From contig CANFIH010000023.1 in assembly GCA_947446855.1 (NCBI GenBank), positions 1 through 35,529 on the forward strand: a stretch of DNA of 35,529 nt, in the 5' to 3' direction. Of this stretch, positions 12,531 through 19,702 are shown piece by piece; positions within the stretch are counted from its first letter, which is position 1; the number at the start of each line of letters is the position of its first letter. This DNA comes from Burkholderiales bacterium (lineage in GTDB: Bacteria > Pseudomonadota > Gammaproteobacteria > Burkholderiales > Burkholderiaceae_C). The notes under the pieces were generated by a model. The model saw only the letters and a program-made list of their open reading frames with translations. It searched no databases and was not told the origin of the DNA. The position numbers were made by a program, and so were the translations under genes.

Positions 12531-12561
12531 AAAAGCCTGCTATTTTTAATAGCAGGCTTTT
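12531..12561. terminator. Terminator downstream of tRNA-His
   Basis: Perfect 14-bp stem (AAAAGCCTGCTATT and its complement) with a three-base loop, followed by a T-run on the minus strand (A-run 12528-12534). A second copy of the arm (GCAGGCTTTTT, 12510-12520) lies just beyond and could pair with the same central strand. Confidence 0.85.
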
Positions 12562-12571
12562 CATCAAGAAC

Positions 12572-12647
12572 TGGGGTGGCTGATGGGGCTCGAACCCACG
12601 ACAACAGGAATCACAATCCTGGACTCTACCAACTGAGCTACAGCCAC
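12572..12647 (-). tRNA. tRNA-His (anticodon GTG)
   Basis: A 76-nt cloverleaf with encoded CCA. The acceptor stem pairs GTGGCTG with CAGCCAC, and the D-loop TAGCTCAGTTGGTAGAG and T-arm GGTTCGAGCC are standard. The anticodon GTG lies at 12612-12614. The base before the 5' end (12648) reads G, as expected for the extra G-1 of tRNA-His. Confidence 0.97.
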
Positions 12648-15204: not shown

Positions 15205-15780
15205 TCAGTGTGCACGGGCACGAATTTCTGGAAGTGCCTTCTGCAGGTAGTACACCATGGACCAAACTGTTAGCACGGCTGCCCCCCAGATCAATGCAAC
15301 ACCCCATACATGGGTGTTGATCAGGCCGAACAACATGCCGTCAAACAACAGGAATGGAATGGCAAGCATCTGCACCACCGTTTTGATTTTGCCAATCATG
15401 TGAACGGCCACACTCTTGGAAGCACCGATTTGCGCCATCCACTCGCGCAAGGCCGAGATCGCGATCTCGCGCCCGATGATGATGAGCGCGACAAACACAT
15501 CCGTGCGCTGCAAATGAACCAGCACCAGCACACAGGCACAGACCAAAAATTTGTCGGCAACCGGATCCAGAAAAGCCCCGAAAGAGGAAGCCTGATTCAG
15601 CTTGCGTGCCAAGTAACCGTCCAGCCAATCGGTCGCAGCAAACAGCACAAACATCACGGTAGCCGCCAAATTTCTTTCGGCCGCGCTCATGATCGCATCG
15701 GGCAGATAAAAGACCCCAACAATGAAGGGAATTGCGGCAATGCGCGCCCAAGTCATGATGGTGGGAATGGTCAAAAACAT
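15205..15780 (-). CDS. pgsA: CDP-diacylglycerol-glycerol-3-phosphate 3-phosphatidyltransferase
   Basis: An inner-membrane enzyme that joins CDP-diacylglycerol and glycerol-3-phosphate to phosphatidylglycerol-phosphate, the committed step to phosphatidylglycerol. The 191 residues match the family length. The CDP-alcohol phosphotransferase motif D-G-x2-A-R-x8-G-x3-D-x3-D is complete: DWLDGYLARKL followed by GAFLDPVADK. Four to five hydrophobic segments are visible, beginning with IPTIMTWARIAAIPFIVG. It is 93 bp downstream of uvrC on the same strand, an order common in proteobacteria, and the two are probably co-transcribed. Confidence 0.96.
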   Translation of the reverse strand: MFLTIPTIMTWARIAAIPFIVGVFYLPDAIMSAAERNLAATVMFVLFAATDWLDGYLARKLNQASSFGAFLDPVADKFLVCACVLVLVHLQRTDVFVALIIIGREIAISALREWMAQIGASKSVAVHMIGKIKTVVQMLAIPFLLFDGMLFGLINTHVWGVALIWGAAVLTVWSMVYYLQKALPEIRARAH

Positions 15781-15873: not shown

Positions 15874-17853
15874 CTAATGCAAAGCTCTGTAGATATCTTC
15901 AGCCAGTTCGCGCGAGATGCCTTCCACCGACGCAATATCCTCGGCACTGGCCAAAGCCACGCCGCGCACCCCGCCAAAGCGTTGCAACAATTTGGCGCGG
16001 CGCTTGGGCCCAATACCGGCAATCTCCTCTAACTTGCCCCCACCTACGCGCACCTTGGCGCGTTGCGCACGCATCCCGGTGATGGCGAAGCGATGTGCCT
16101 CGTCGCGAATCTGCGCAACCAGCATCAACGCCGCCGAATCGGCACCCAGGTAGACCTTGTCGCGGCCATCGGCAAACACCAGTTCTTCCAGCCCGACCTT
16201 GCGGCCCTCGCCCTTTTCCACGCCAACGATCAGCGACAAGTCCAACCCGAGAGACTCAAACACCTCACGCGCCATAGCCACCTGCCCCTTGCCGCCATCC
16301 ACCAGCACCAGATCAGGCAGACGCCCCGTACCTGCTGGTAGCACGCCGCTGTGCTTGGCTTCGCTCAATGCCTCTGCCAGCTTGCTGTAGCGCCTTGTCA
16401 ACACCTGGCGCATGGCGGCATAGTCATCTCCCCCGGTAATGCCGTCAATGTTGTAGCGCCGGTACTCTGCGTTCTGCATTTTGTGGTGATGAAACACCAC
16501 ACAGGATGCCTGCGTGTTTTCTCCGGCGGTATGCGAAATATCGAAGCACTCGATACGCAAGTCTTCCAGATTGTCGATTGCCAGGTCCAGAGCCTCGGCC
16601 AGGGCGCGCGTGCGCGCCTGCTGCGAGCCCTCCTCCGCCAGCAAACGTGCGAGTTGCAGGGCCGCGTTGGTCTGCGCCATATCCAGCCAGGCGCGCCGCT
16701 GTTCCCGCGGCTGGTGCACGGCCGTCACTTTCATGCCGCCTTGCTGCGACAAGGCCGACAACAAGTTCTTGCTGACCGGCTCGCTCACAACCAGCACCGA
16801 CGGCATGGGCACACCGGTGTAATGCTGGGCCAAAAAGGCTTCCAGCACTTGCGCTTCCACAGACGGGCGTTGGGCCTCATCTGCATCTTCCAGGCCCGCC
16901 GCCTCTTCCACATGCACGGGAAAATACGGTCGATCTCCCAAGTGCCGTCCGCCGCGCACCATCGCCAGATTGACACAGGCTTTGCCGCCCTGCACTTTCA
17001 CAGCCACGATGTCGACGTCCCGGTCCGACACGTTGTCCACCGACTGCTGATGCAGCACATTGGACAGCGCCGCCACCTGGTTGCGGATTTCTGCAGCCTG
17101 CTCAAACTCCAGCCGATCGGCATAGGCCATCATGCGGGTCTCCAACTCCTGCATCACCTCACGTGCATCACCACGCAAGAAGCGCTCTGCATTGGCCACA
17201 TCCTCTGCGTAATCCGCCGCGTTGATGTGGCCCACACAAGGGGCTGAACAGCGCTTGATCTGGTAGAGCAAACAGGGTCGCGTGCGGTTGCTAAACACCG
17301 GGTCTTCGCAGGTGCGTAAACGAAACACCTTTTGCATTAACAAAATGGCTTCCTTGACCGCCCAAGCGCTCGGGTAGGGCCCGAAGTACCGGTGTTTTTT
17401 TTCCACCCCGCCGCGGTAGTACGACACACGGGCAAACACTGCTGGATTGGGAACCATGCGCGCGCCGGTCGGCGCGTCCTTGGGTACTTCCATCGCCAGT
17501 TGCTTGGCCGCAGGCGCCTGTCCCGACATCTTCAAATAGGGGTAGCTCTTGTCATCCCGAAACAGAATGTTGTACTTCGGGTTGAGCGTCTTGATCAGGT
17601 TGTTTTCCAGCAGCAAGGCCTCGGCCTCGCTGCGCACCACCGTGGTTTCCAGGCGCACGATCTTGCTCACCATATGGCCTATGCGCGTGCCGCCATGGTT
17701 CTTCTGGAAGTAGCTCGACACCCGCTTCTTGAGGTTGATGGCCTTGCCAACGTAGAGCACCTGGCCCTGGGCGTCGAAGTAACGGTACACGCCCGGCAGC
17801 GACGGCAGGGAGGCCACCTCGCGCAGCAGGTCTTCGGAATGCTCTGAAATCAT
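15874..17853 (-). CDS. uvrC: UvrABC system protein C (excinuclease subunit)
   Basis: Makes both incisions around DNA damage in nucleotide excision repair. From ATG 17853 the protein has 659 residues. The N-terminal GIY-YIG nuclease has GVYRYF and VLYVGKA, with its glutamate in [15 protein letters not shown]. The UVR domain ([16 protein letters not shown]) contacts UvrB. The C-terminal nuclease has [16 protein letters not shown] and [10 protein letters not shown], and a double helix-hairpin-helix ends the protein ([18 protein letters not shown]). The open frame runs upstream to 18045 but would overlap earP and lacks homology character. An in-frame ATG at 17862 would add MQP. The 30 bases between this start and the earP start are a perfect palindrome. 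Confidence 0.95.
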
Positions 17854-17886
17854 GGGCTGCATTGTCCATGGACAATGCAGCCCATG
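17851..17886. repeat. Perfect 36-bp palindrome containing the start codons of uvrC and earP
   Basis: Arm CATGGGCTGCATTGTCCA (17851-17868) is followed with no spacer by its exact complement (17869-17886). The outermost CAT/ATG triplets are the start codons of the two divergent genes. Symmetry ends at this boundary (T 17850 against C 17887). As a result both genes carry the same 30 bases upstream of their ATG, and both open frames can begin with Met-Gln-Pro-Met. Confidence 0.97.
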
Positions 17887-19023
17887 CTCTGGGATATTTT
17901 TTGCCGCGTAATCGACAACTTTGGCGACATCGGTGTGTGCTGGCGCCTGAGTGCCGACCTGGCCAGCCGGGGACACAGCGTGCGCCTGTGGGTAGACGAC
18001 GCCAGTGCCTTGCAATGGATGGCGCCGGGCGCTTTGGAGGGACACTGGCCTGGCGTTCAGGTACTGCCCTGGCAGCGCAGCAGCGAACCCGAACCCTTAC
18101 AACCATTGGCCCTTGCCGATGTCTGGATTGAAGCCTTTGGCTGCGACCTTCCCCACACCTTTGTCGCCCATTTCGTGCAGCTTGTGTCCGGCGGAGGTGG
18201 CCCAGCAACCAAGGCGTGCAAGTCCCAACCGGTATGGATCAATCTTGAATACCTCTCGGCCGAGCCCTATGTCGAGCGCTCCCATGGCCTGCCCTCCCCC
18301 CTCATGCAGGGGCCGGCAAAGGGCTGGACGAAGTTCTTTTTCTACCCCGGCTTGAGTGACAAAACCGGCGGCCTGTTGCGCGAGCCCACAATCCCCGCCG
18401 CAGGGCAGGCCCCTACGCCTGCCCTGCGCTCGGAATTTTTCTCGCGGTTTGGCATTCCATGGCAAGGGGAACGCGTTTGCTCTCTGTTTTGTTATGAACC
18501 GCCCTTGCTCCAGGCCTTGCTGGACCAGTTCAGCGACGGCGCAGAGCCGGTCCTGTTGCTGGTCACCCCGGGACGGGCCAGTAATGCAGTCCAAGCCCTG
18601 GCCGGGCAGAAAAGCAGCATAGGCATGCTCCAAATCCACTACCTGCCTACGCTCACGCAAGCCGACTACGACAAGCTCCTGGCGAATTGCGATGTCAACT
18701 TTGTGCGGGGCGAGGACTCGGTGCTGCGTGCGTTGTGGGCGGGGCGCCCCTTTGTCTGGCAAATTTACCCGCAGGACGATCAGGCACACGCCACCAAGCT
18801 GGAGGCCTTCATGGGACAACTGCAATTTGGCACCTCTGTGCGCGCCTTGCACCGGGCTTGGAATGGACTGACCACGGCGGCTCAACAAGCTGGTGCACTG
18901 GAAGCTTTGCAGGTCCAGGCAAGCCCTGAATGGCAGGCGCAAGCACTTGCGGCGCGTCAACGCCTATTCAAATTGCCGGACCTGACCACCGGCCTGCTCC
19001 AATTCGTCCAGAAAAACCGTTAA
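17884..19023 (+). CDS. earP: Elongation factor P arginine rhamnosyltransferase EarP
   Basis: Inverting glycosyltransferase (GT104, DUF2331) that moves rhamnose from dTDP-rhamnose to an arginine of EF-P. From ATG 17884 it has 379 residues and starts [20 protein letters not shown]. The motif DNFGDIG supplies the two aspartates (Asp11 and Asp15 here) that match the catalytic pair known in the family. The donor-binding C-terminal half has [26 protein letters not shown], read here in pieces. A start at 17875 (adding MQP) is equally open; neither has a good ribosome-binding site, since the upstream bases are the palindrome. efp follows 124 bp downstream on the same strand, the usual earP-efp arrangement. 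Confidence 0.95.
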
Positions 19024-19147
19024 AATTCAAGGCTTTGCTGATCTTGCCTCCGAAAAACCGGGGACGCAGATCACGCCCCGCCGCCGAACGCGGCATAACT
19101 CAAGCTGATGGCCTGTGGCCTGCAGCTGCAACTGCTACCAGACATTT

Positions 19148-19702
19148 ATGAAAATCGCTCAAGAAATCCGCGCCGGCAACGTCATCATGCACGGCAAGGA
19201 CCCGATGGTCGTGCTGAAAACCGAATACAGCCGCGGCGGCCGTAACTCCGCCACCGTGCGCATGAAGCTCAAAAGCCTGATCGCCAACTTCGGTACCGAA
19301 GTCGTGTTCAAGGCCGACGACAAGATGGACCAGGTCATTCTGGACAAGAAGGATTGCACCTACTCGTACTTTGCCGACCCCATGTACGTGTGCATGGACA
19401 GCGATTACAACCAGTACGAAGTCGAAGCCGAGAACATGGGCGACGCGCTGAACTACCTGGAAGACGGCATGGAACTCGAAGTCGTGTTCTATGACGGCAA
19501 GGCCATCTCGGTCGAGTTGCCCACCGGCGTAGTGCGCGAGATCACCTGGACCGAACCCGCCGTCAAGGGCGATACCTCCGGCAAGGTGCTCAAGCCCGCC
19601 AAGATCGCCACCGGCTTTGAAATCGGCGTGCCAATCTTTGTGGCCCAGGGCGACAAGGTGGAAATCGACACCCGCACCGGCGAATACCGCAAGCGCGTGT
19701 AA
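19148..19702 (+). CDS. efp: Translation elongation factor P
   Basis: Relieves ribosomes stalled on polyproline stretches. The 184 residues start [20 protein letters not shown] and hold the three OB/KOW-like domains of the family. The loop tip reads SRGGRNSA with Arg32 in place of the lysine that other bacteria modify with beta-lysine; Arg32 is the residue rhamnosylated by EarP, encoded just upstream. ATG 19148 is chosen over the upstream frame extension (from 19115) because the family starts at MKIAQEIR. The 124-base gap after earP may hold its own promoter or leader; it contains a CTGCAGCTGCAACTGC stretch but no clear Shine-Dalgarno. A terminator follows the stop. Confidence 0.97.

Follow-up and report, generated by a model that had tools for sequence, protein, structure and literature searches.

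A perfect 36-bp palindrome lies between the divergent genes uvrC and earP of a Burkholderiales bacterium and takes in the start codons of both. Very probably it is composed of two sigma70-type -10 boxes facing away from each other, from which uvrC and earP would be read divergently as leaderless messages, with the perfect symmetry a by-product that arose in few lineages. Comparison across relatives points this way: the boxes keep their distance to the start codons, the gap between them varies widely, Shine-Dalgarno sequences are rare at both genes, and the symmetry itself is mostly absent.

A perfect palindrome spanning two start codons

The palindrome (positions 17851..17886, no strand assigned) was located in a 35,529-nt stretch of contig CANFIH010000023.1, the whole of which is referred to as the window. 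As the preliminary description had reported, it has no spacer: two 18-nt arms are 100% complementary and stand 0 nt apart, and the symmetry ends at the adjoining base on either side, T at 17850 and C at 17887. Its outer triplets are the in-frame start codons of uvrC, on the minus strand at 15874..17853 (start codon 17853-17851), and of earP, which encodes the EF-P rhamnosyltransferase, on the plus strand at 17884..19023 (start codon 17884-17886). The position of the uvrC start is kept in the loci that share the palindrome's core, and that of earP was placed by conservation. Both genes are well identified by Pfam, earP by PF10093 (EarP) with an E value of 2.4e-119 on 17884-19020, and uvrC by UvrC RNase H, GIY-YIG, UVR and HHH domains on 15877-17853 (minus strand). 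From their sequences, we take the open frame after earP (19115-19702) to be an EF-P look-alike and that after uvrC (15205-15780) to be a PgsA look-alike.

The palindrome is real and is unusual as raw sequence. Other loop-free palindromes in the window reach arms of 8 bp at most, and in 1.6 Mb of a relative (G061) the maximum is 11 bp (n = 3). Because the identical 36 bp also occurs in a separately named MAG contig, CANCER010000014.1 (locus L033), it is not an assembly artefact of the window's genome alone. Its 16-bp core, ATTGTCCATGGACAAT, turned up in 10 of the 103 genus genomes searched for the exact 16-mer, with a single site in each, always at uvrC/earP. Elsewhere in the window, a perfect 14-bp inverted repeat with a 3-nt loop (AAAAGCCTGCTATT/AATAGCAGGCTTTT, 12531-12561) adjoins tRNA-His (12572-12647, minus strand) and looks like its terminator.

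Within the palindrome we propose two GACAAT -10 elements, mirror images lying 4 bp apart and each 7 nt 5' of its own gene's ATG. The candidate element for earP occupies 17871..17876 on the plus strand (with A at -11 and T at -7), and that for uvrC occupies 17861..17866 on the minus strand. Between them is the centre of symmetry, CATG (17867..17870, no strand); its identity across the 10 core-bearing genomes is a consequence of how they were searched for, and other relatives have other gaps in its place. The stretches from box to ATG form the outer arms; the right one (17877..17883, plus strand, 7 nt) varies in sequence among relatives, and the left one (17854..17860, minus strand, 7 nt) varies in both sequence and length (7 or 8 nt). 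A polymerase positioned at 17871-17876 would start transcription near 17884, at or adjoining the A of the earP ATG, and one positioned at 17866-17861 would do so near 17853, at or adjoining the A of the uvrC ATG, so that each start codon would also be the expected transcription start. Messages without a leader would need no Shine-Dalgarno sequence.

Boxes at a conserved distance from both starts

Searching for EarP turned up matches in 123 of 149 genomes (the window's own among them), from which 30 loci were kept, one of them the window; among named stretches the best 80 of 283 were kept, and the sample is therefore one of nearest relatives. After counting the window once and merging eight duplicate pairs, there were 102 distinct loci, in 84 of which uvrC is divergent within 200 nt, our criterion for a divergent locus. 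When all in-frame ATG and GTG candidates are admitted, ACAAT occurs 4-10 nt 5' of an in-frame start in 77 of these 84 at earP, in 71 at uvrC, and in 66 at both. Restricting the count to ATG and to distances of 5-9 nt, the box precedes earP in 78 of 102 loci and uvrC in 76 of 95, against 0, 0 and 0 of 102 (earP) and 1, 5 and 1 of 95 (uvrC) in control windows placed 15-19, 25-29 and 35-39 nt before the start.

At earP the box mostly stands 6 nt (32 loci) or 7 nt (44 loci) from the start, and at uvrC 7 nt (25 loci) or 8 nt (37 loci). The earP ATG lies anywhere from 2 to 37 codons ahead of a conserved Trp, yet the box spacing is 6 or 7 in 76 of 77 loci (spacings of 5-9 being admitted and the ATG chosen being the one with the box); the earP box thus appears to be tied to the ATG and not to the protein. 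Nor does a box appear to be tied to its mirror partner: over 66 loci the gap from ATTGT to ACAAT ranges from 2 to 111 nt; the window's 6-nt class has nine loci, and a 2-nt class, exemplified by TATTGTGGACAATC, has 12. Neither gene of the window has a Shine-Dalgarno element visible by eye, in agreement with the preliminary description, and sequences resembling one occur in just 2 of 78 earP and 4 of 76 uvrC loci. The earlier suggestions that the promoters may lie within the palindrome and that both messages would then be nearly leaderless are supported by the comparison of relatives. It is also literally true, as had been pointed out, that both genes can start Met-Gln-Pro-Met, at an ATG at 17875 and at its mirror image. 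That upstream ATG overlaps the proposed earP promoter box; on the earP side, it is lacking from six of the nine other distinct core-bearing sequences (L004-L009) and kept in three (L016, L033 and L215).

Where the earP box differs, two of its positions tend to stay. GACAAT keeps the A(-11) and T(-7) of the TANNNT consensus and lacks its T(-12), and -7T and -11A are given as the best conserved promoter positions in the part of PMC10268837 available to us. Of the 24 earP loci without ACAAT before the ATG, 17 retain the A and the T of positions 2 and 6 (-11 and -7); 12 have TANNNT at that place and five have CACACT. The 12 comprise TAGAGT in ten and TAGTAT and TAAAGT in one each, and since all ten TAGAGT loci are in Variovorax-titled records or a VARIO8X scaffold, that is, in one related group, they represent few independent events. 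In five loci (L080, L085, L087, L102 and L112) uvrC lies about 530-540 nt from earP, a distance at which something may be inserted between the two, and earP keeps a TAGAGT box 8 nt before its ATG. On the uvrC side the box is absent from the 5-9 nt place in 19 of 95 loci, two of which have TANNNT there; these 19 include Polaromonas records in which the box is farther upstream. Eight Polaromonas records (L051, L053, L054, L062, L063, L073, L098 and L101) have TATTGTGGACAATC upstream of earP, with two ACAAT boxes 2 bp apart. The Polaromonas uvrC start being farther from its box, uvrC may have a short leader there.

Leaderless genes with a box of this general kind are known from related bacteria. 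TA-like signals about 10-12 bp 5' of the start mark leaderless genes and were detected in 9 of 71 beta-proteobacterial genomes (Zheng et al. 2011, PMC3160421), and Burkholderia cenocepacia has leaderless transcripts with a TA-rich motif directly upstream (PMC4603805). As far as the portions of these two sources at hand describe them, such genes resemble uvrC and earP in having a -10-like box 6-8 nt before the ATG, a conserved spacing to the start and few Shine-Dalgarno sequences. They differ in that the box at uvrC/earP is [GC]ACAAT and not TANNNT in most relatives, in that this pair is divergent with 4 bp between hexamers, and in that the starts here are deduced from sequence (PMC3160421, PMC4603805, both in part). 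The genus seems to possess a leaderless minority class beside a Shine-Dalgarno majority. In a survey of G061 (1.6 Mb, with 1731 candidate ATGs for 1218 long open frames), most of the start signal is Shine-Dalgarno, with a GGAG peak. TA.AAT was counted 5, 1 and 4 times at distances of 6, 7 and 8 nt ahead of the ATG, where the mean background is 0.5 per position; the corresponding counts for TA..AT are 10, 2 and 7, over a background of 2.2.

Several observations fit a standard promoter less well. No conserved -35 was seen in box-anchored upstream alignments of 79 earP and 71 uvrC loci, and a promoter scan of 17600-18150 called neither box and paired no -35-like hexamer with either. Position -12 of the boxes is G or C, not T. 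On the earP side alone, [GC]ACAAT is immediately preceded by a TG conserved at 81-82% (17869-17870 in the window, and in relatives), and the TG of a textbook extended -10 stands one base farther from its box than this one. Across all loci TANNNT is hardly commoner at 5-9 nt than in three farther windows, with 14 of 102 against 11, 8 and 8 at earP and 3 of 95 against 7, 2 and 0 at uvrC; such a pattern is expected if ACAAT is the main form, but gives no support by itself. In G061, ACAAT is weakly enriched (5, 2 and 1 at 6, 7 and 8 nt against a background of 1.9, sd 1.3), and no TG.ACAAT was seen at 6-8 nt before ATG in its 1.6 Mb. The first 400 kb of G061, a sample too small to decide, showed no clear peak of ACAAT-N7-ATG (eight seen, with 0-11 at other distances). 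Nor would a generic -10 require ACAAT to be preserved so strictly, letter for letter.

Origin of the mirror symmetry

If the palindrome is treated as random sequence, the chance of 5e-7 that the preliminary description assigned to it stands, although real genomes exceed random ones (in G061, 13 palindromes with 9-bp arms against about 4.6 expected). As the chance of the symmetry it does not: given two promoters with equal spacing, that chance is about 0.002-0.006 per locus. The symmetry results from having the same box on both strands, the same distance from box to ATG, and C-rich 7-nt leaders that resemble each other. Proposed promoter sequence common to the 10 core-bearing genomes makes up the 8-bp inner half-arms, and the outer 3 bp of each arm match because two ATGs stand at equal distance. 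For the remaining 7 bp, the probability of a full match is about 0.002 from site frequencies (the window and L033 left out), and among 953 cross-locus pairings of leaders, pooled from all groups with 7-nt spacing, six agree at all seven positions. Besides the two perfect loci, those with 7-nt spacing on both sides (15 in all) match at one to five of the seven.

Among the 10 core-bearing genomes the full 36 bp is present in two, the window's and G160, whose sequence here is L033. The preliminary description had looked to compensatory changes in both arms as proof of selection on the palindrome, but as read in the alignment the outer arms of the eight other core-bearing genomes vary without matching changes. 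In the three of these that space both boxes 7 nt from the start, 4, 3 and 2 of the 7 pairs match; L004 nearly keeps the left arm and not the right, and L215 nearly keeps the right arm but has an extra base in the left. A nucleotide tree of the 5' part of uvrC does not place the two perfect species as sisters (support about 0.92), and in uvrC codons 31-200 they are 82% identical (419 of 510 nt). The window and L033 agree at 89 of 90 positions in a stretch that begins 30 bp ahead of the core's first base and runs 60 bp beyond it, compared with 498 of 600 in the uvrC flank and 218 of 300 (ungapped) in the earP flank. The full arms of the two species may reflect shared ancestry followed by loss in other lineages, a local transfer, or constraint.

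The last seven matching pairs are probably due to chance, perhaps aided by template switching on a pre-existing 16-bp palindrome. A stronger version, which we regard as possible though rather doubtful, holds that template-switch (quasipalindrome) correction of this kind perfected the outer arms, which would have no function of their own. The route is an established source of mutation, as part of PMC7202029 attests, and a 16-bp core able to seed a hairpin is present in all 10 core genomes. Each outer arm is, however, one base off in some relative, the left in L004 and the right in L215 and L009, so that ordinary drift also suffices; moreover, a 7/7 match by chance at about 0.002-0.006 per locus is to be set against the sample's 15 loci in which both spacings are 7 nt, the two perfect ones among them. 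This explanation concerns origin and is compatible with that of two promoters.

It is improbable that the full mirror symmetry is itself kept as functional, with an identical 30 bp upstream giving two leaderless promoters of equal strength that exclude each other. If true, one polymerase binding event would pick between a DNA-repair gene and an EF-P-modifying gene, in a fixed ratio. In keeping with this, the two full-palindrome species retain the entire 36 bp although their uvrC has diverged to the 82% given above.

About as improbable is an operator, by which a dimeric regulator binding the 16-bp core or the whole palindrome would control uvrC and earP together, a coupling also suggested by the preliminary description. 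The perfect two-fold symmetry is what such a site would show, the core is intact in the 10 of 103 genomes, and both full outer arms persist in two species that differ as much in uvrC as noted above. Against this, the symmetry is mostly absent in relatives, and all but one of the further copies of the core that were found lie in coding frames. The window's genome has two more 16-mer sites at up to two mismatches, both inside long open frames that presumably encode MlaD-like and MsrP-like proteins. An exact 14-mer has 15 sites in 11 of the 91 genomes searched, six of them the uvrC/earP site; eight of the other nine are in frames reading as conserved proteins with Leu-Ser-Met-Asp at the site, which we take to be MlaD-like in four, FabH-like in two and ABC permease-like in two. 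The ninth, in G101 of a different family, is the only one of the nine not placed in a coding frame. No further promoter copy of the core was found with the 16-mer at up to two mismatches in the window's own genome, the exact 14-mer in 91 genomes or the exact 16-mer in 103, and hence no regulon; a regulator having uvrC/earP as its single site would be compatible with this. Where relatives lack the core, uvrC/earP shows nothing comparable in symmetry, yet both boxes are mostly kept: from 150 nt before to 60 nt after the earP start, these relatives contain no loop-free perfect palindrome with arms longer than 6 bp. Relatives of the same gene order without symmetry, which the preliminary description had named as evidence against its reading, are thus found in part, among loci without the core.

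That the palindrome acts as RNA, with transcripts from farther upstream folding so that a 16-bp hairpin conceals the start codons, is very unlikely. The hairpin predicted for the window is strong (-29.1 kcal/mol, z -6.6), and the equivalents in L037 (z -2.4) and L035 (z -3.1) fold better than most shuffles, but at -13.5 and -15.1 kcal/mol these have about half the window's strength; the stretch folded for L034 gave -7 with part of the 5' arm missing and so says little. The outer arms are not kept among relatives and show no compensatory changes, the box keeps its distance to the ATG and not to the other arm, and a message starting at the ATG would not contain the hairpin, all of which tells against the hiding of start codons that had been suggested. 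The least plausible proposal makes TGGACA the -35 of a promoter whose -10 (GATATT) sits in the first earP codons, the only sigma70-like site called by the scan on 17600-18150, but one that would start transcription inside earP, past its start codon, and from whose position in the first codons the box varies widely in distance among relatives while its distance to the ATG is fixed.

In the 2-nt-gap class, TGTGGACAA is one base off what we take to be the complement of the DnaA box, TGTGGATAA; a DnaA box reading was rejected, as the window's core does not fit it and boxes without TGTGGACAA are, by eye, common.

Proposed divergent promoters at close quarters

Under the explanation of two outward-facing -10 boxes, the start points of uvrC and earP would be 31 bp apart. 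The footprint of RNA polymerase is larger than such a spacing allows, so that two polymerases should not fit together and the genes would take turns. Among relatives the distance from start to start runs from 24 to 136 bp (66 loci), and exclusion would therefore not be a constant property of uvrC/earP. Warman et al. (2021), cited in PMC12825309 and PMC10268837, reportedly described bidirectional promoters with symmetrical -10 elements. The uvrC/earP arrangement resembles that class in its near-symmetric candidate -10 sequence, which would give transcription both ways, and in that polymerases are expected to exclude each other. Bidirectional promoters are defined, in the part of PMC10268837 at hand, by starts 7-25 bp apart, mostly 18 bp, and overlapping -10 elements; the boxes at uvrC/earP are instead separate, with 31 bp from ATG to ATG when the ATG is taken as the start, which places the window's candidate promoters outside the shared -10 class in both respects. 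Four relatives (L043, L067, L077 and L078) have 24-25 bp from start to start. Exclusion has been described for closer promoters that share a box, and separate divergent promoters are set apart as free of direct clashes, in what we have of PMC12825309; at 31 bp, mutual exclusion is our inference from the spacing.

In a limited literature collection, no paper contained both 'earP' and 'uvrC' as whole words and none combined 'leaderless' with 'Comamonadaceae'; judged by title and the start of the abstract, none of those joining 'leaderless' with 'bidirectional promoter', and none among the matches listed for leaderless divergent palindromes, concerned uvrC/earP.

To judge from the spacing of the boxes, then, many Comamonadaceae probably transcribe uvrC and earP from back-to-back promoters as two leaderless messages, and in some lineages the gap between these promoters would have shrunk until the two -10 boxes nearly touch. 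With gaps of 2 to 111 nt over 66 loci, the family would offer a natural series in which to ask how close divergent promoters may come before polymerases exclude each other. The case also cautions against taking every long palindrome at divergent starts for an operator, and it turns an improbable-looking palindrome into a testable statement about leaderless divergent promoters.
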